NCBI RefSeq assembly: GCF_029338355.1
Contig: NZ_CP119802.1
Span: 1,612,001 to 1,676,000, forward strand
DNA: 64,000 nt
Source of the DNA: Halosegnis marinus
GTDB lineage: Archaea > Halobacteriota > Halobacteria > Halobacteriales > Haloarculaceae
Direction of reading: 5' to 3'
Part shown: positions 32,769 through 49,408 of the stretch, in pieces
How the letters are laid out: the number at the start of each line of letters is the position of its first letter
Numbering within the stretch: the first letter of the stretch is position 1
Notes under the pieces: model-generated
The model's input: the letters and a program-made list of their open reading frames with translations, nothing else
The model's database searches: none
What the model was told of the DNA's origin: nothing
Made by a program: the position numbers and the translations under genes

Positions 32769-32789
32769 TTTACTACGCGGGCGAGTAAC
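32769..32789. promoter_or_regulatory. TrmB-type operator overlapping the TATA box of the nucleotidyltransferase-glmS operon
   Basis: TTTACTA-N7-GAGTAAC. The core TACT-N8-GAGTA fits the published Halobacterium TrmB motif TACT-N7-8-GAGTA. The right arm is identical to the copies at 42481 and 48431 and the left arm matches at five of seven bases. The left arm lies inside the probable TATA (ATTTACTA, 27 bases before the ATG at 32798), a position expected to repress. Confidence 0.75.
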
Positions 32790-32797
32790 TACACACC

Positions 32798-33985
32798 ATG
32801 ACCGTGACGACGGGGGTCGTGCTGGCGGCGGGGGAGGGGACGCGGCTCCGCCCGCTGACGCGCAACCGCCCGAAGCCGATGCTCCCCGCCGCGAACCGGC
32901 CCATCCTCGAATACGTCCTCGACGCCCTCCTCGACGCCGGCGTCGAGGAGTTGGTCGTCGTCGTCGGCTACCGGCGCGACCGCGTCCAGGAGCACTTCGG
33001 CTCGACGTACCGCGACGCGCCCGTCACCTACGTCCGCCAGGAGAAACAGCTCGGCAGCGGCCACGCCCTCCTCCAGGCCCGCGAGGCCGTGGACGGCGAC
33101 TTCGTGGCCGTCAACGGCGACCGCGTGGTCGACCCCGACACGGTGGCCGCGACGCTCGACGCCTTCGACGGCTCGGAGCCCGTGATGGCCGTCCGCGACC
33201 ACCCGAACGCCGCACAGTACGGCGCGGTGCGCCTCGACGGCGACCGCGTGACCGACCTCGTCGAGAAGCCGACCGCGGACGAGTACCGGCTCATCAACGC
33301 GGGGGTCTACGCTCTCACGTCCGACTGCTTCGACCGCCTCGTGGCGACCCCCCGCCGGGACGGCTCGCTCATCCTCACCGATGCCCTGCTCCCGCTCGTC
33401 GAGGAGGGGAGCGTCCGCGCCGTCCACACCGACGGGCTGTGGGTGGACGCGACCTACCCGTGGGACCTCCTCGAAGCCGCCCGCCGCCTGCTGGACGAGG
33501 GCTGGGTGACGGAGACGCAACGCTCGCCGGGCGTCCACGTCCACCGCTCCGCGACCGTCCACGAGGACGCGACGCTACAGGGGCCGGTCGTCGTCGGCCC
33601 GGACGCCGAGATCGCCGCCAGCGCCGTCGTCGGCCCGGACGCCGCGCTCGGGCGCAACGTCACCGTCGGCGCGAACGCCACGGTCGAGCGGTCGGTCGTG
33701 GACGCCGACACGCGCGTCTGCGCGGCGAGCGTCATCCGCGACTGCGTCACCGGCTCCGGCGTCGTCGTCGGCCCGGGCGCGACGGTACCCGGGGGTCCCG
33801 CCGACGTGCGCGTCGGCGACCGCGTCTTCCCCGACGAGCGGCTGGGCGCGGTGCTCGCCGACCGTGCCGAGCTCGGCGGCGGCGCGACCTGCGAGCCGGG
33901 CACGCTCGTCGGCGTGAACGCCCGCGTCGGGCCCGGCGCGTTCGCCCGCGACCGCGTCCCCGAGGACGGCGAGGTGGTCCGCTGA
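32798..33985 (+). CDS. glmU: Sugar-1-phosphate nucleotidyltransferase with acyltransferase-like C-terminus (GlmU-like)
   Basis: 395 residues. The N-terminal nucleotidyltransferase domain has the signature LAAGEGTRLRPLTRNRPKPM (residues 8-27) and VNGDRVVD. The C-terminal ~150 residues are a left-handed beta-helix of hexapeptide repeats (VHRSATVHEDATLQGPVVVG). Archaeal relatives are bifunctional: glucosamine-1-phosphate acetyltransferase and UDP-GlcNAc pyrophosphorylase. The overlap with glmS strongly suggests this role, but a glucose-1-phosphate thymidylyltransferase cannot be excluded. The stop overlaps the glmS start by one base (TGATG). Confidence 0.85.
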   Translation: MTVTTGVVLAAGEGTRLRPLTRNRPKPMLPAANRPILEYVLDALLDAGVEELVVVVGYRRDRVQEHFGSTYRDAPVTYVRQEKQLGSGHALLQAREAVDGDFVAVNGDRVVDPDTVAATLDAFDGSEPVMAVRDHPNAAQYGAVRLDGDRVTDLVEKPTADEYRLINAGVYALTSDCFDRLVATPRRDGSLILTDALLPLVEEGSVRAVHTDGLWVDATYPWDLLEAARRLLDEGWVTETQRSPGVHVHRSATVHEDATLQGPVVVGPDAEIAASAVVGPDAALGRNVTVGANATVERSVVDADTRVCAASVIRDCVTGSGVVVGPGATVPGGPADVRVGDRVFPDERLGAVLADRAELGGGATCEPGTLVGVNARVGPGAFARDRVPEDGEVVR

Positions 33986-42464: not shown

Positions 42465-42474
42465 AAAGTATTTA
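42465..42474 (+). promoter_or_regulatory. TATA element of the sulfoquinovose-synthase-like gene
   Basis: AAAGTATTTA, centred about 33 bases before the ATG at 42503, immediately upstream of the TrmB-type operator. A start site near 42497-42503 would lie inside or at the end of the operator. Confidence 0.6.
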
Positions 42475-42480
42475 CGCGCA

Positions 42481-42501
42481 GTTACTCACATCGTGAGTAA
42501 C
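42481..42501. promoter_or_regulatory. TrmB-type operator, perfect GTTACTC-N7-GAGTAAC
   Basis: A perfect 7-bp inverted repeat with spacer ACATCGT, ending one base before the ATG at 42503 and beginning just after the TATA box. Contains TACT-N8-GAGTA, the published TrmB consensus. Its position downstream of TATA predicts repression when TrmB is bound (sugar-poor conditions). Confidence 0.8.
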
Positions 42502-42502
42502 C

Positions 42503-43663
42503 ATGTCCATCATCGTCACCGGCGGGGACGGGTACATCGGGTGGCCGACGGCGCTGCGCATCGCGGACCGGACCGACGAGCGCGTCGTCGCGGTCGACAA
42601 CTTCGGGCGACGCGCGTGGGTCGAGGAGGTCGGCGCCGTGAGCGCCACGCCCGTCGCGAGCATCGACGAGCGGCTGGAGGCGGCCCGCGAGGTCCACGGC
42701 CTCTCGAACCTCTCCTTCGTCGAGGGCGACCTCACCGACAAGGCGTTCGTCGAGGAGCTGCTGCAGGTCCACGAGCCCTCCGCGATCGTTCACGCCGCGG
42801 CCCAGCCCTCCGCGCCGTACTCGCAGATCAACGGCGAGCGGGCGAACTTCACCCAGCACAACAACATGGCGGCGACGCGGAACCTCCTGTTCGGCCTCCA
42901 CGAGAACGACCTCGCGGACACGCACTTCATCGAGACGACGACGACCGGCGTCTACGGCGCGCCCGACTTCCCCATCCCCGAGGGCGGCGCGACGATGGAG
43001 CACGAGGGCGAGCGCGACGAGGTGCCGTTCCCGGCGATGGCGGGGAGCTGGTACCACCTCACGAAGAGCCACGACGCCGCGAACATGCGGCTCGCGGCGA
43101 AGCAGTTCGGGGTTCCCATCTCGGACGTGCGCACGGCTATCACCTACGGCACGGAGACCGAGGAGACGCGCGCCGACGACCGGCTGAAGACGCGCTTCGA
43201 CTTCGACTACTACTTCGGCGTCGTCGCCCACCGCTTCGCGGCGCAGGCAGTCGCGGGCTACCCGCTCACCGTCTACGGCAAGGGCGAACAGCGCAAGCCG
43301 TTCGTCTCGCTGGAGGACGCCGTCGAGGGGCTGGCGCGACTCGCGCTCGCCGACGCGCCCGACGAACTCACGGTGTACAACCAGGTGACACGGCCCATCG
43401 CCATCGTGGAGATGGCCGAGACCATCCGGGAGGTCGCGGCGGAGTTCGACCTCGACGTCGAGGTCACCCACGTCGAGAACCCGCGCGACGAGGACGAGGA
43501 ACACCGCATGGAGATCGACAACGACCGCTACATGGACCTCATCGGCGAGCAGCGCGCCACCTTCGCGGACGGCATCGAGGACGTGCTCGCGACGCTGACG
43601 CGCTACGCGGACACCATCGAGGCCCACGAGGACCGCTTCCTGCCCGACGCGCTGCGCGATTAG
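42503..43663 (+). CDS. UDP-sulfoquinovose synthase-like epimerase/dehydratase
   Basis: A 386-residue extended SDR enzyme close to SQD1. It carries TGGDGYIGWPTAL (NAD site with the Trp typical of SQD1), HAAAQPSAPYSQI, ETTTTGVYG, the catalytic-type SWYHLTKSHD and the long SQD1-like substrate segment ISDVRTAITYGTETEET ... YPLTVYGKGEQRKPF. SQD1 converts UDP-glucose and sulfite to UDP-sulfoquinovose; in haloarchaea this would feed sulfated glycans of glycoproteins or glycolipids (inference). Controlled by the TrmB-type site just upstream. Confidence 0.85.
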   Translation: MSIIVTGGDGYIGWPTALRIADRTDERVVAVDNFGRRAWVEEVGAVSATPVASIDERLEAAREVHGLSNLSFVEGDLTDKAFVEELLQVHEPSAIVHAAAQPSAPYSQINGERANFTQHNNMAATRNLLFGLHENDLADTHFIETTTTGVYGAPDFPIPEGGATMEHEGERDEVPFPAMAGSWYHLTKSHDAANMRLAAKQFGVPISDVRTAITYGTETEETRADDRLKTRFDFDYYFGVVAHRFAAQAVAGYPLTVYGKGEQRKPFVSLEDAVEGLARLALADAPDELTVYNQVTRPIAIVEMAETIREVAAEFDLDVEVTHVENPRDEDEEHRMEIDNDRYMDLIGEQRATFADGIEDVLATLTRYADTIEAHEDRFLPDALRD

Positions 43664-44223
43664 ACCTCGCTCGGCAGGTCACCGGTTCCGAGCGACAGCC
43701 GCTCGGAGCGGTAGCGATGGACCAGCCCCGACCCCAACAGGAGGAGCGAACACGCCAGCGCGGTCGGCGCCATCCCGAACAGGACGAACGGGTAGACGCC
43801 GAGCGCGACGGCCGAACACAGTGCCAGACACACCGAGCCCAGGAGCGTGTAGTACGTCCCCCACGAGATCTCCTTCTCGGGGACGATTTCGAGGAACACC
43901 GTCAGCTCCTCCAGCGAGTCGGTCGGCTCGACCGTACCGCGGTCGTGGTCGTAGTCGACGACCGCGTTGTCGTCCATCTTCGGGAGGTGTGACTGCTGGA
44001 GCGCGTTGTACACGCGCCGACGCTGCTGGGCGCTCACCGCCGACGGCTCGGTGTCGTTCTCCCACGCGGCGACCTGCCGGGAGAGCGTCCGGAGGTCCGT
44101 CGCGCCGTCGCGCTGGAGCGAGTGGACCACCATCCGCCGTCGCTCGTTGCTGATGGTCTCGAACATCTCCTGCCGGCTGGGTCCCTCGTCGTCCCCCGAC
44201 GACTCCGCCGCTGCTGCCCCCAT
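43660..44223 (-). CDS. Membrane-anchored winged-helix regulator (DUF7344-type)
   Basis: 187 residues. An N-terminal ArsR-like winged helix (EMFETISNERRRMVVHSLQRD ... RRRVYNALQQSHLPKMDDNAVV) precedes two transmembrane helices (about 123-143 and 147-168). This HTH-plus-TM layout is that of the haloarchaeal DUF7344 group, whose members usually control neighbouring genes. It is divergent from the surface-protein genes at 44461 and 45533, the probable targets. The TATA sits inside a palindrome, CAGATT-A-AATCTG (44248-44260), about 27-30 bases before its ATG, hinting at autoregulation. Confidence 0.85.
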   Translation of the reverse strand: MGAAAAESSGDDEGPSRQEMFETISNERRRMVVHSLQRDGATDLRTLSRQVAAWENDTEPSAVSAQQRRRVYNALQQSHLPKMDDNAVVDYDHDRGTVEPTDSLEELTVFLEIVPEKEISWGTYYTLLGSVCLALCSAVALGVYPFVLFGMAPTALACSLLLLGSGLVHRYRSERLSLGTGDLPSEV

Positions 44224-44247
44224 TTATATCTGCTTTGAGTACCTGTT

Positions 44248-44260
44248 CAGATTAAATCTG
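44248..44260. promoter_or_regulatory. Palindrome CAGATT-A-AATCTG covering the regulator's TATA box
   Basis: Perfect 6-bp inverted repeat with a one-base centre. On the minus strand it contains TTTAAT at the TATA distance from the ATG at 44223. A protein bound here would block TBP. Confidence 0.5.
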
Positions 44261-44432
44261 TTGGCCGGTCGGCGATAGGACGCCGCCGCCTGCCGCCCCG
44301 AAACGGCGTTTAATCGGGAATTAGGCCGACTCCCGATCGGTTCAGGCCGTCCAATCCGTTCCTCTCGCCCACCCTGTGGCCCGTTCTGCTGCCGCTTGTA
44401 GAAGGACCCCTCTCCCCTGGGTGGGGATACGC

Positions 44433-44448
44433 CCCGCCACACGGCGGG
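44433..44448 (+). promoter_or_regulatory. GC-rich stem-loop just upstream of the exported-protein start
   Basis: CCCGCC-ACAC-GGCGGG, a 6-bp stem with a four-base loop, ends 12 bases before the ATG at 44461. No TATA lies at the leaderless distance; the nearest candidate (GTTTAATC, 44310-44317) implies a ~120-base leader containing this hairpin, so translational control is possible. Confidence 0.4.
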
Positions 44449-44460
44449 CACGATTCAACC

Positions 44461-45522
44461 ATGTCCGAAGACGACAGCACGAACGTCAGTCGGCGCAGCG
44501 TACTCGGTGGCATCGCGGGACTCGCGGTCGCGGGGAGCGGCCTCGCGGCGGTCTCCTCAACGGCGAGCGCGAACAGTTCGGTTTCCATCACGTCCGCGGA
44601 CGCCAGCGCGACGCTGGACCGCGGTGAACTCACCAGCCTGACTATCAACCCGACGTTCACGGTGAACTGGACGGGGCTCGACGACGCCGTCGGCAAGGTG
44701 TTCTGGCTCGTCGAGGCGAGCGTCGACGGCGGGGACTTCTACCCGCTGTTCCGCGCGACGCCGTGGCTGACCGCCGACCAGATCGGGACCACCGGCTCGT
44801 ACGCCGTGGAGCCGTCGTTCGAGGAGGCGCTCAACGCGGACGACCGCTTCGACGACGGGAGCGGCCCGGACTACTCCGCCGGTCCGCTGGTCGTGGCCGA
44901 CGAGCAGGGCCGGCCCGACTACGCGAACTACGACTTCGGGAGCATCTCCGGGAACATCACGTACGAGTCGTTCATGAACGGTACGAGCATCGGGGGCGCG
45001 GACGACTACCCCGGCGCGCACGAGGACGGCGGCTGGCAGAACAACTACTGGGACGTCGACGCCGGTTACTACGGCGCCGCGTCCGACACCACGCCGTTCA
45101 ACGAGACGACGGACGGGGAGACGAAGACGACGGACGTCACGCTCCGCTACACCTTCGAGTTCCAGCGCCCGAACCTCTCGCAGCTGAAGTACCGCGTCGA
45201 CTTCGCGAACTACGACGGGCCGGAGGCGGGGGCGACGCAGTTCACCGAGCTCTCCGTCGCCGAGCAGAAGCGCTTCGCCGCGGAACAGATCGACGGGCTG
45301 GAGGAGTCCGACATCGACGACGGGAACTCGAAGCTCGTGATGAACGGCGAGGACGGGTTCCCGGAGTTCGGGACGCCGTCGGGCCTCTCCTACAGCCAGA
45401 TCCGGGACAACGCCGACGCGCACCCCGGTCTACTCTCGGCGACGACGACCTTCACGGTTAGCGTCACCAACAAGGCTTCGAGCAGCGACTCCACCGGAAC
45501 CTCCGGCGCCGAGGCCGAGTAA
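44461..45522 (+). CDS. Tat-exported surface protein of unknown family
   Basis: 353 residues. The N-terminus NVSRRSVLGGIAGLAVAGSG is a Tat signal (twin Arg 11-12) with a probable cut after TASA. The mature part is acidic, aromatic-rich and predicted beta-rich (FWLVEASVDGGDFYPLFRA, DGGWQNNYWDVDAGYYGAAS, VTLRYTFEFQRP), with NGTS, NITY and NETT sequons. It ends in a Ser/Thr/Gly tail. No lipobox or C-terminal anchor is seen, so it may be secreted. It is followed after 10 bases by the surface-protein gene at 45533 and faces the membrane regulator gene. I do not recognise the family. Confidence 0.75.
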   Translation: MSEDDSTNVSRRSVLGGIAGLAVAGSGLAAVSSTASANSSVSITSADASATLDRGELTSLTINPTFTVNWTGLDDAVGKVFWLVEASVDGGDFYPLFRATPWLTADQIGTTGSYAVEPSFEEALNADDRFDDGSGPDYSAGPLVVADEQGRPDYANYDFGSISGNITYESFMNGTSIGGADDYPGAHEDGGWQNNYWDVDAGYYGAASDTTPFNETTDGETKTTDVTLRYTFEFQRPNLSQLKYRVDFANYDGPEAGATQFTELSVAEQKRFAAEQIDGLEESDIDDGNSKLVMNGEDGFPEFGTPSGLSYSQIRDNADAHPGLLSATTTFTVSVTNKASSSDSTGTSGAEAE

Positions 45523-45532
45523 GTAGGCCCGC

Positions 45533-47002
45533 ATGGACGCCAACGGCAGTTCGGGCGGCGACCGCTCCGACGCCGGCAGCGGCGCGCTTCCCGTGACAAA
45601 GCGCACCGCCATCGTCGCGCTGCTCGCCGCTATCGTCGTCCTCGGCGCGGGGGCGGGCATCACGGCCACGCTCACCGAGGACGCGCCCTCCCGCGTGGCG
45701 GCGTCGGACTCGGCCGACGGGGCCGGCGCGTCCCTCTCGCTCCCGGACGGCGGGACGACCACCGTCTCCTTCGCCGGGACGCGCGTCGCCGAGAACGCGA
45801 GCGGCGTGGGACTCGACTCGCTGAACGTCTCCGTCGACGGCGGCGGCGACCTCACGCTGTCCGGCGTCAGGAAGACCGACGGCTCCGCCGTCGACACCGC
45901 CCCGACGAACGCGACGGCGGGCTACCTGAACGTCGGCCACGAGGGGGACGCCGAGATAGACAGCGTCACGTTCCGCTTCACCGTCTCGGCGGCGACGCTC
46001 CGCGACGCCGGTATCGAACCCGGCGACGTGACGCTGTACCGTTACCACGACGGCGAGTGGCGGGCGCTGGAGACGGCGCTCGACGCGGCCTCGGCCGATG
46101 CGTACACCTTCCGGGCGGTCTCGCCCGGGCTCTCCGTGTTCGGCGTCGGCCCCTCGCGGGCGAACGACCGCTCGAACGCGGGCGAAAACGGGAACGGAAA
46201 CGGGAACGGAAACGGCAACGGCGGCGGCCCGCCGCCGGACACTACGCCGACCGCGACCCCGACGCCCACGGAGACGCCAACGGCTACGCCGACGGCTACA
46301 CCCACTGCGGAACCGAACGGAACGGCGACGCCGACCGCCACAGCTACACCGACCGCGACACCGACGCCGGAACCGAACGAAACGGCGACAGCGACTCCGA
46401 CGCCGACCGGGACCGACGACGGCGGCTCGGGGGGTGTCTCTCCGTCGAATCCGCCGCCCGAGAACCCGCCGCCGACGAACGGCGGTGGAGGCGGTGGTGG
46501 CGGTAGTGGCGGCGGTGGTGGCGACGCCCCGCCGGACCGCGGCTTCGACGCGACCGTCCGAGTCGCCGCGCCGAACCCCGAGCCGATACGCTCGGACCGG
46601 GGCGACGTGGACGTCGTCGCCGGCTCGGTCGCGGGCGAGGTGTCGTGGTCCGACGACCGCGCGACCCGTGCCGTGGTCACGGTGACCGTGTCGGGCGACG
46701 GCGACTCCCGGGAGCTCCGCAACGTCACCGTTCCGCTCGACGGCGAGACCTCGCTGTCGCTCGCCGAGGCGCTGACCGACACCCGGCTGCTGTACGCGAC
46801 CGGACCGCGCGCCGACGCGCTGTCGGTGGACGAGGACGGCCGTACCGCGACCTACCGACGGGTCGTGACGGTGGCGGTGACGCTGTACGACGGTGAGGAG
46901 CGCCTGACGACCGCGAGCGACGACGACGGCCTCACGGTCGTCGTCACGAACGTCGAGGCCGCCAGCGAGGGGGACGGGCGTTCCGGCTCCAGCGCCGCGT
47001 AG
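45533..47002 (+). CDS. PGF-pre-PGF-like surface glycoprotein with mucin-like linker
   Basis: 489 residues. A cytoplasmic ~24-residue tail and a signal anchor (TAIVALLAAIVVLGAGAGITA) are followed by a ~145-residue domain with TVSFAGTRVAENASGVGLDS and VTLYRYHDGEWRALETALD, resembling the PGF-pre-PGF domain of archaeal surface proteins. Next come an Asn-Gly repeat, about 75 residues of Thr-Pro/Glu repeats, a Pro run and a poly-Gly run (about residues 215-335), then a second beta-rich domain (FDATVRVAAPNPEPIRSDRG). The Thr-Pro stretch suits dense O-glycosylation. No PGF-CTERM sorting signal is visible. Confidence 0.8.
   Translation: MDANGSSGGDRSDAGSGALPVTKRTAIVALLAAIVVLGAGAGITATLTEDAPSRVAASDSADGAGASLSLPDGGTTTVSFAGTRVAENASGVGLDSLNVSVDGGGDLTLSGVRKTDGSAVDTAPTNATAGYLNVGHEGDAEIDSVTFRFTVSAATLRDAGIEPGDVTLYRYHDGEWRALETALDAASADAYTFRAVSPGLSVFGVGPSRANDRSNAGENGNGNGNGNGNGGGPPPDTTPTATPTPTETPTATPTATPTAEPNGTATPTATATPTATPTPEPNETATATPTPTGTDDGGSGGVSPSNPPPENPPPTNGGGGGGGGSGGGGGDAPPDRGFDATVRVAAPNPEPIRSDRGDVDVVAGSVAGEVSWSDDRATRAVVTVTVSGDGDSRELRNVTVPLDGETSLSLAEALTDTRLLYATGPRADALSVDEDGRTATYRRVVTVAVTLYDGEERLTTASDDDGLTVVVTNVEAASEGDGRSGSSAA
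46186..46530 (+). repeat. Low-complexity repeats encoding (NG)n, (TP)n and (G)n linkers
   Basis: Inside the surface glycoprotein gene: tandem GGGAACGGAAAC units near 46190-46225, then imperfect repeats of ACGCCGACC-like hexamers to about 46410, and GGTGGTGGCGG runs at 46485-46530. Such repeats slip readily, so linker length may vary between strains. Confidence 0.75.
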
Positions 47003-47030
47003 GACGTATCGGGCATCGAAACACGCGGCT

Positions 47031-47040
47031 GCTTTTTATT
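47031..47040 (+). promoter_or_regulatory. T-rich element: terminator of the surface cassette and TATA of the next gene
   Basis: GCTTTTTATT lies 28 bases after the stop at 47002 and is centred about 26 bases before the ATG at 47062. The T5 run can end the upstream transcript, while TTTTTATT is well placed as the TATA box of the small membrane protein gene. Confidence 0.5.
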
Positions 47041-47061
47041 CGAGTCCGGCGTAGTGCCGGT

Positions 47062-47415
47062 ATGACATCCAGTGAACTCCGGCTCCGTGAGGCCGGCTCC
47101 TCGGGGCGGGAGTTCACCCGGCTGTGGCTCGTCGCGCTCGCCACCTACGGGGTCGGCGACGTGGTGACGACGGTCGCGCTCACCCGGTTCGTTCCCCGAT
47201 TGAGCGAGGGGAACCTCCTGCTCGCGGCGCTGCTCAACAGCCACGGCAACCTCGGGCTCATCGGGCTGAAGCTCGCCGTCTTCGCCGGCTGTCTCGCCAT
47301 CAGCCTCTACGGCGCCCGCACCGCCGACCGCTTCGTCTACTACCTCCCGCCGGCCCTGCTCGCCGTCGTCGGGGGGTTCACGACGGCGTACAACCTCCGG
47401 CTCCTGTTCGGGTAG
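47062..47415 (+). CDS. Conserved haloarchaeal membrane protein, 117 aa
   Basis: Three membrane helices (about 22-43, 62-82 and 91-110) after a polar N-terminus (MTSSELRLREAGSSGREFTR). Conserved-looking motifs are YGVGDVVTTVALT in the first helix and LNSHGNLGLIGLKLAVF before the second; charged Asp and Lys residues within helices suggest a function beyond anchoring. No family name recalled with confidence. It precedes an epimerase gene by 41 bases. Confidence 0.7.
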   Translation: MTSSELRLREAGSSGREFTRLWLVALATYGVGDVVTTVALTRFVPRLSEGNLLLAALLNSHGNLGLIGLKLAVFAGCLAISLYGARTADRFVYYLPPALLAVVGGFTTAYNLRLLFG

Positions 47416-47456: not shown

Positions 47457-48386
47457 ATGCACGTCCTCGTCACCGGCGGCTGCGGCTACATCGGGAGCGT
47501 CCTCGTCCCCCTGTTGCGCGACGACGACCGCGTGGACCGCGTCACGGTCCTCGACGACTTCTCGGCCTCCTCGCCGCGGGCGCTGTTCGGGCAACTCGGC
47601 GACGACACCGTCCGCTTCCGCCGCGGCGACGTCCGCCAGTACGGCGACGTGGAGTCGGCCGCCCGGGGGGCCGACGCCGTCGTCCACCTCGCGGCCATCA
47701 CGGGCGCGGCGAGCACCCACGACCGCCGCGAGGAGACGTTCGAGACGAACTACGAGGGGACGCGCAACGTGCTCAACGCGGCGGGGAAGGTCGGCGTCGA
47801 CAACGTCGTGCTCGCCTCCTCGTGTAACATCTACGGGCGCGCCCCGACGACGGACATCGACGAGTCGGTCGAGCCGGACCCGATCAACCCCTACGCCGAG
47901 ACGAAGTACGAGTCCGAGTCGCTGTTGCGCGAGGCGCGCGAGGAGTTCGGCTTCGACGGCGTCGCCCTGCGGATGGCGACGAACTACGGGAACGCGCCCG
48001 GCGTCCGCTTCAACCTCGTCGTCAACCACTTCGTGTTCCGGGCGCTGACCGGGCGGGCGCTCACGGTGTACGGCGACGGGTCGAACTGGCGGCCGTTCGT
48101 CCACGTCCGCGACGCCGCCCGCGCGTACAAGCACGCCGCGCTCGCCCCCGACGACTGGGACCGCGAGGTGTACAACGTCGGGTCGAACGACGGCAACTAC
48201 CGCGTCGCGGAGATCGCCGAGGTCGTGAGCGAGGAGGTCGCGCCCGTCGACGTGACCTACCTGGAGGACGAACACCCCGGCCCCTCGTACCACGTGAACT
48301 TCGACCGCCTCGCCCGAACCGGGTTCGGGACGGAGTGGACGCTCCGCGAGGGGGTCCGCGACCTCCGCGACGCCTTCCGCGGGTAG
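47457..48386 (+). CDS. NAD-dependent nucleotide-sugar epimerase/dehydratase
   Basis: A 309-residue extended SDR protein: GGCGYIGS NAD motif at the N-terminus, VHLAAITG, SSCNIYG, the catalytic YAETK and a C-terminal substrate domain with GDGSNWRPFVHVRDAARAY. The start MHVLVTGGCGYIG is standard. A TATA-like GGCTATACG (47425-47433) is about 27 bases upstream, so it is probably transcribed on its own. It has no TrmB-type site, unlike the epimerase gene that follows. Likely substrate UDP- or GDP-linked hexose; unassigned. Confidence 0.87.
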   Translation: MHVLVTGGCGYIGSVLVPLLRDDDRVDRVTVLDDFSASSPRALFGQLGDDTVRFRRGDVRQYGDVESAARGADAVVHLAAITGAASTHDRREETFETNYEGTRNVLNAAGKVGVDNVVLASSCNIYGRAPTTDIDESVEPDPINPYAETKYESESLLREAREEFGFDGVALRMATNYGNAPGVRFNLVVNHFVFRALTGRALTVYGDGSNWRPFVHVRDAARAYKHAALAPDDWDREVYNVGSNDGNYRVAEIAEVVSEEVAPVDVTYLEDEHPGPSYHVNFDRLARTGFGTEWTLREGVRDLRDAFRG

Positions 48387-48430: not shown

Positions 48431-48451
48431 GTTACTCGGAACATGAGTAAC
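48431..48451. promoter_or_regulatory. TrmB-type operator covering the start codon, perfect GTTACTC-N7-GAGTAAC
   Basis: A perfect 7-bp inverted repeat with spacer GGAACAT. The ATG at 48443 begins inside the spacer and the codons ATG-AGT-AAC form the right arm. A weak TATA (CCTTAC, 48414-48419) is 27 bases before the ATG, so the operator covers the presumed transcription and translation start. Confidence 0.8.
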
Positions 48452-49408
48452 TCGACGCACGTCGCGATAACGGGCGCGGCGGGCTTCATCGGGAGCCGGG
48501 TGGTCGGGCAGTTGCGCCGCGACCACCCCGACTGGGAGCTGACGGCCATCGACAACTTCTATCTCGGCGACGTGCGCGAGGTCGGCGACACGACGGTCGA
48601 GCACGTCGACATCCGCCACCGCGACCAGCTGACCGACGCGCTCGACGGGGCGGACGCGGTGTTGCATCTCGCCGCCATCTCCGGCGTGGACGACTGCGAC
48701 GACAAGCCGGACCTCGCCTACGAGGTCAACGTCGTCGGGACGAACAACGTCGCCTACTTCTGCGAGCGGACGGGCGCCGGGCTCGCGTTCCCGTTCTCGA
48801 TGGCGGTCATCGGCGACCCGACCGACTTCCCAATCACGACCGACATGGCCCGCGACCCGCTGAACTGGTACGGCGAGACGAAGGTGCTCGGCGAGCGGGC
48901 CGTCGAGACGATGGCCGACGGCTCCTTCCCCGCGGTGCAGTTCATGATATCGAACCTCTACGGCGAGCACGCCGTCGGCGACCGCGCCGTCTCGAAGGGG
49001 ACGGTCATCAACTTCTTCGTGAACCGGGCGCTCGCCGGGGAGCCGCTCACGGTGTACGAGCCGGGGACGCAGGCGCGCAACTTCGTCCACGTCCGCGACG
49101 TGGCCGACGCCTTCTGCCGGGCCGCCGAGCGGCTCGTCGCCCGGCGTGCCGCCGGGGAGACGGGGTCGGAGGCGTACGAGGTGGCGAGCGACGAGGACCC
49201 CGGCGTGATGACGGTCGCCGAAACCGTGGCCCGCGTCGCGAGCGAGGAGCGGGGGCTGGACGTGGACATCGAACTCGTGGCGAACCCGCGCAGCGGCGAG
49301 ACGCTCGTGGACTCCTTCGCCGTCGATACGACGGCCATCGAGCGGGACCTCGGGTGGACGCCGACGGAGAGCGTCGAGGCGTCGGTCCGCGACCTGCTGG
49401 CCGAGTAG
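48443..49408 (+). CDS. NAD-dependent epimerase/dehydratase, TrmB-site controlled
   Basis: A 321-residue extended SDR enzyme: GAAGFIGS (NAD site), VLHLAAISGVDDC, FSMAVIGD, the catalytic-type WYGETK and a substrate domain with SNLYGEHAVGDRAVSKG and EPGTQARNFVHVRD. The start MSNSTHVAITGAAG (48443) is fixed by the NAD motif and the leaderless promoter; the longer upstream frame is rejected. It follows the epimerase at 47457 by 56 bases yet carries its own operator-bearing promoter. The substrate is unknown; nucleotide-sugar synthesis for surface glycans is the best guess. Confidence 0.87.
   Translation: MSNSTHVAITGAAGFIGSRVVGQLRRDHPDWELTAIDNFYLGDVREVGDTTVEHVDIRHRDQLTDALDGADAVLHLAAISGVDDCDDKPDLAYEVNVVGTNNVAYFCERTGAGLAFPFSMAVIGDPTDFPITTDMARDPLNWYGETKVLGERAVETMADGSFPAVQFMISNLYGEHAVGDRAVSKGTVINFFVNRALAGEPLTVYEPGTQARNFVHVRDVADAFCRAAERLVARRAAGETGSEAYEVASDEDPGVMTVAETVARVASEERGLDVDIELVANPRSGETLVDSFAVDTTAIERDLGWTPTESVEASVRDLLAE

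Follow-up and report, generated by a model that had tools for sequence, protein, structure and literature searches.

A candidate TrmB-family regulator and its putative operator at surface-sugar genes of haloarchaea

Canonical TrmB of Halobacterium salinarum and Haloarcula hispanica (family model NF047392) combines a PF01978 domain with a C-terminal sugar-binding domain, and its published targets lie in gluconeogenesis and carbon metabolism. A second described relative, TrmBL2 (PDB 5box, 5bpd, 5bpi, 5bqt), is an archaeal chromatin protein according to its depositors. On the side of the target genes, the genome paper of Haloquadratum walsbyi noted an operon of sqdB and two galE genes and suggested sulfolipids; its passage on this operon names no operator or regulator (PMC1544339). 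In the open-access literature searched, we found neither a transcriptional regulator of aglJ or of the haloarchaeal N-glycosylation pathway to which AglJ belongs nor an earlier description of the regulator and the GTTACTC-N7-GAGTAAC operator presented here.

The DNA analyzed is a stretch of 64 kb (the window) that contains an sqdB-like gene preceded by this palindrome. The protein that we consider its candidate reader, REG, is encoded elsewhere in the genome. REG shares PF01978 with canonical TrmB but lacks the C-terminal sugar-binding domain, and the genes at its presumed sites are surface-sugar genes rather than those of gluconeogenesis and carbon metabolism. Its best match is TrmBL2 (phmmer E 2.4e-9; Foldseek E 1.5e-19 for a model of a REG orthologue), which it is predicted to resemble in having a winged helix, a long helix and a PLD-like domain with no C-terminal sugar domain. 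The likeness to TrmBL2 has limits: identity is ~22%, global superposition is poor (TM ~0.4), and the sharp sites tied to REG number just one to three in each genome. Among the targets, the sqdB-like product aligns end to end with SQD1-type UDP-sulfoquinovose synthase, and the third site of the genome adjoins aglJ.

Operator copies and target genes

The sequence confirms an earlier observation, made in a sequence-only reading of the window, that a UDP-sulfoquinovose synthase-like gene carries a perfect GTTACTC-N7-GAGTAAC palindrome between its ATG and a TATA-like element (operator 1, Table 1). The palindrome ends one base upstream of this ATG and contains TACT-N8-GAGTA; that reading had also correctly quoted TACT-N(7-8)-GAGTA as the published TrmB motif (PMC3794607). 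TACT-N8-GAGTA has five matches in the window against 0.09 expected, a number that no shuffle reached, while TACT-N7-GAGTA has none there. Genome-wide, however, the 12 + 10 matches to TACT-N8-GAGTA compare with 4 + 4 for the reversed control, which makes the short motif alone too loose as a genome-scale search pattern, and none of the further matches whose surroundings were inspected was clearly tied to sugar genes. For the full palindrome, the expectation under a dinucleotide model built on the window, whose GC content is 70%, is 0.00004 copies in 64 kb and ~0.002 in the genome, whereas two perfect copies occur in the window and exactly three in the 2.81-Mb genome.

Thus the single site noted earlier is real, but a second copy in the same window had been overlooked. 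This copy, operator 2, overlaps the start codon of SDR2, and its position is matched in another genome (G085, locus L203) by a site with one mismatch. The third perfect copy lies between REG and a tiny ORF that is followed by aglJ; it is 1 nt upstream of the ATG of the tiny ORF and 73 nt from that of REG, which is on the opposite strand. A degenerate copy 8 nt upstream of a GlmU-like gene may be a weak site or a chance match. A glmS-like frame comes after the GlmU-like gene.

Table 1. Positions of operators, promoter element and genes discussed in the text (window coordinates unless a locus is named)
Feature	Position	Strand	Description
Operator 1	42481-42501	.	GTTACTCACATCGTGAGTAAC; perfect 7-7-7 inverted repeat, from sequence
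TATA-like element of the sqdB promoter	42466-42474	+	AAGTATTTA; from sequence and orthologous promoters
sqdB-like UDP-sulfoquinovose synthase gene	42503-43663	+	386 aa; NF041015, SQD1 homology
SDR1, GalE-like sugar-nucleotide epimerase	47457-48386	+	PF01370, TIGR01179
Operator 2	48431-48451	.	GTTACTCGGAACATGAGTAAC; perfect palindrome
SDR2, second GalE/RmlD-like SDR gene	48443-49408	+	321 aa; family matches
Possible degenerate site	32769-32789	.	TTTACTACGCGGGCGAGTAAC; 2 mismatches
Archaeal GlmU-like sugar-1-phosphate nucleotidylyltransferase	32798-33985	+	TIGR03992, 280.8 bits, slightly below the 292.1 cut-off
REG, TrmB-family gene	L021:570-1427	minus	~285 aa; PF01978; divergent from tiny ORF and aglJ
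Tiny ORF beside aglJ	L021:1523-1684 (own genome C1, ~248.9 kb)		upstream operator

The earlier assignment of the gene behind operator 1 to the SqdB/SQD1 type is borne out by homology. Its product matches nearly the full length of NF041015 (E 1.1e-105) with a score of 353.8 bits, below the equivalog cut-off of 575 bits, and residues 3-373 align to the PDB structure of SQD1 (1qrr; E 1.2e-77). The segments TTTTGVYG and SWYHLTK, which carry a Thr motif and Tyr-x-x-x-Lys, line up with segments of SQD1 that we take to hold its catalytic residues. The 386-aa product is thus likely a UDP-sulfoquinovose synthase, an activity assigned from homology. SDR1 lies directly downstream of sqdB in most relatives (loci L104-L183), and carries a perfect site itself in one genome (G138). 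In the window, ~3.8 kb (43660-47415) splits these two genes, a gap that holds a DUF7344 gene and encodes a secreted-looking protein (44461-45522). The gene beside the third site encodes AglJ (TIGR04182, 441 bits against a cut-off of 325). The tiny ORF between them belongs to a family of ~33-62 aa proteins with a conserved C-terminal D-G-C-G-C-x-E-x-W-E-H, for which a family search gave no matches. Nearly all relatives have it downstream of the aglJ-side operator, and in one genome (G144) the site stays with the tiny ORF although REG sits elsewhere.

Site conservation and co-occurrence with REG

Perfect copies of the palindrome are present in 96 of 146 genomes of the family. We inspected 60 sites in other genomes: 30 are directly upstream of sqdB, 28 are at the tiny ORF, REG or aglJ, one is upstream of SDR1 in a genome that yielded no sqdB, and one is upstream of an S-layer-glycoprotein-like gene, with two further such cases in the same genus. 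For the S-layer-like gene product, TIGR04207 indicates a surface-glycoprotein signal, and there is similarity to NF041335. In three genomes of that genus (G054, G056 and G057; loci L234, L235 and L236), perfect operators lie ~320 nt upstream of the S-layer-like ATG, a distance suggesting that the leader is long or that a promoter there is unmapped. Since the S-layer candidates of the genome under study have no site with fewer than five mismatches, the S-layer link is limited to this one other genus.

The position at sqdB is tightly kept. In 70 of 80 named sqdB loci, a site with no more than two mismatches ends -1 to 4 nt from the start codon, and in orthologous promoters a TATA-like hexamer usually begins 14-17 nt upstream of the site; the remaining ten loci have no site, and none of them has REG in the locus DNA inspected. 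The center of the palindrome is variable except for R at position 8 and Y at position 14, which extends the consensus to GTTACTCR-N5-YGAGTAAC. One locus (L251, G184) has two operator cores ~250 bp apart upstream of sqdB. On sequence grounds, the palindrome is a real, widely conserved regulator site in haloarchaea.

REG scores 63.2 bits against PF01978 (gathering score, 25.6), and all of 24 REG orthologues match this winged-helix domain. Against NF047392, for which a canonical TrmB is expected to exceed 500 bits, REG scores 37.9 bits over residues 8-83 only, and the PF11495 sugar-binding domain is absent from the 24 orthologues searched. The protein consists of the TrmB winged helix, the long helix and the PLD-like domain without the TrmB C-terminal domain. 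We sought a phospholipase-type HKD motif in REG and found none, which makes catalysis unlikely. The structure is represented by a model of the orthologue L150 with a mean pLDDT of 85.7 and a pTM of 0.54, so that the domain arrangement is uncertain. In REG (IPKARIYGVLDSL) and TrmB (IPQPRVYDTVRSL), the helices presumed to mediate recognition align as related yet distinct sequences, a likeness that is consistent with a half-site common to both proteins.

Site presence follows REG. Among the 146 family genomes, 94 have both site and REG, two the site only, eight REG only and 42 neither (Fisher p 5e-26, a value that overstates independence because the genomes are related). Agreement with the site is found for REG in 136 genomes and for canonical TrmB, which is above cut-off in 101, in 107. 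Several of the eight REG-containing genomes without a perfect site have one with one or two mismatches upstream of sqdB. Within genera, three Halosegnis-group genomes (g1) without REG keep the sqdB-SDR1-SDR2 order and have no site at three or fewer mismatches in this region, and single genomes in g3, g15 and g20 retain sqdB while REG and the site are both gone. Because REG and sqdB strongly co-occur (both are in 100 family genomes), part of the correlation between site and REG reflects shared target presence; only seven genomes, with sqdB and without REG, separate the two, and one of these (G035, 71% complete) carries the site. In G012 (L047), REG is a decaying pseudogene with internal stops beside sqdB, and a perfect operator is retained; a recent loss is possible.

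Outside the family, the core site occurs in 50 of 62 genomes with REG and in 14 of 237 without it, and at least two cores are found in 35 REG-containing genomes but in none lacking REG. The exceptions are the 12 REG-containing genomes without a core and the 14 REG-lacking genomes with a single copy; two of the latter sites (L248, L249) have no target genes nearby. In a distant family, where REG is 44% identical, sqdB and REG are divergent genes with the site between them (L252). No site at three or fewer mismatches was found near some REG genes or between REG and aglJ where the tiny ORF is missing (L243).

Proposed mechanism and alternatives

These data make it probable that REG is a dedicated TrmB-family transcription factor with the palindrome as its operator at surface-sugar genes. 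The case for REG itself as the protein that would bind the palindrome consists of co-occurrence, linkage and within-genus losses. A REG dimer would bind GTTACTCR-N5-YGAGTAAC, which at sqdB, SDR2 and the tiny ORF follows shortly after the TATA element, on or touching the expected transcription start, and its binding there would block RNA polymerase. Release of REG by some signal would then turn on the sulfosugar, epimerase and aglJ-side genes together. The predicted regulon comprises the sqdB and galE-like genes, the second epimerase gene, the aglJ unit and, in one genus, the S-layer-like gene. Repression is the likeliest mode of action, given a site where short-leader haloarchaeal promoters should initiate. 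From the operator common to sqdB and the aglJ unit, we infer that SqdB would feed an N-glycan rather than a sulfolipid.

The sequence-only reading had named the glucose-responsive TrmB as the factor that binds the site and couples sulfosugar synthesis to sugar supply. The published TrmB motif does lie within the site, and many family genomes have canonical TrmB. However, neither NF047392 nor PF11495 was found in this genome, and the perfect site is present in none of 17 genomes with TrmB and without REG, as opposed to 15 of 18 with REG and without TrmB. Moreover, none of the 15 TrmB ChIP-seq peaks in Har. hispanica is annotated as sqdB or aglJ (PMC10817205), the perfect sqdB sites being known from nine other named Haloarcula species. 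Because canonical TrmB is missing here, the site follows REG and no listed peak carries either annotation, TrmB is highly improbable as the reader; a reader of the TrmB family is likely, as had been proposed. The suggested link to sugar supply finds no direct support; the genes to which the sites do point are aglJ, those for sugar-nucleotide epimerases and a one-genus S-layer-like gene. It is also improbable, if a little less so, that another factor reads the site, with REG a mere companion of the glycosylation genes. Such a factor would fit the joint gain and loss of REG and sqdB, and REG binding is itself a prediction, but the site vanishes in four genera where REG was lost and sqdB kept. 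In addition, the site sits between REG and the tiny ORF, or between REG and sqdB in distant lineages, as expected of a self-linked regulator, and REG has a TrmB-type winged helix while the half-site resembles the TrmB motif.

A different question is whether REG binds but activates, or changes role with a ligand, instead of acting as a simple repressor. TrmB-family proteins act either way depending on position (PMC10817205), and the ~320-nt distance at two S-layer-like genes (L234, L235) would suit activation; we nevertheless regard this as rather unlikely, since the sqdB site lies between TATA and ATG at the 70 named loci and a dimer bound there should hinder initiation. The positional rule invoked earlier, by which sites downstream of TATA repress and upstream sites activate, is stated for TrmBL1/Tgr of Thermococcales (PMC10817205), whereas in Har. 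hispanica the repressed genes have motifs overlapping the BRE. Finally, perfect 7-7-7 inverted repeats of any sequence number 15 in the window, so that the shape alone is common and could reflect chance or a DNA-structural role without regulation. There is hardly any likelihood of this for the palindrome, whose sequence is kept across genera and families around a variable center, whose position is fixed at the same genes, and whose reversed control is empty in the family (0 of 146 genomes).

Returning to repression by REG, we see about an even chance that a TrmB-like repressor without a sugar-binding domain, acting through GTTACTCR-N5-YGAGTAAC, runs a conserved haloarchaeal glycosylation regulon of the aglJ unit, the UDP-sulfoquinovose and epimerase genes and a one-genus S-layer-like gene, with the 33-62 aa DGCGC-motif protein maybe taking part in control, and that this single local regulator switches the composition of the N-glycan coat. 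A short TrmB-like motif is not assignable to TrmB when a paralogue has the same half-site. Archaea change their surface glycans with conditions, and our findings offer a regulator candidate with an exact operator, a short list of targets and sister species that lost the regulator, which together make this regulation directly testable.
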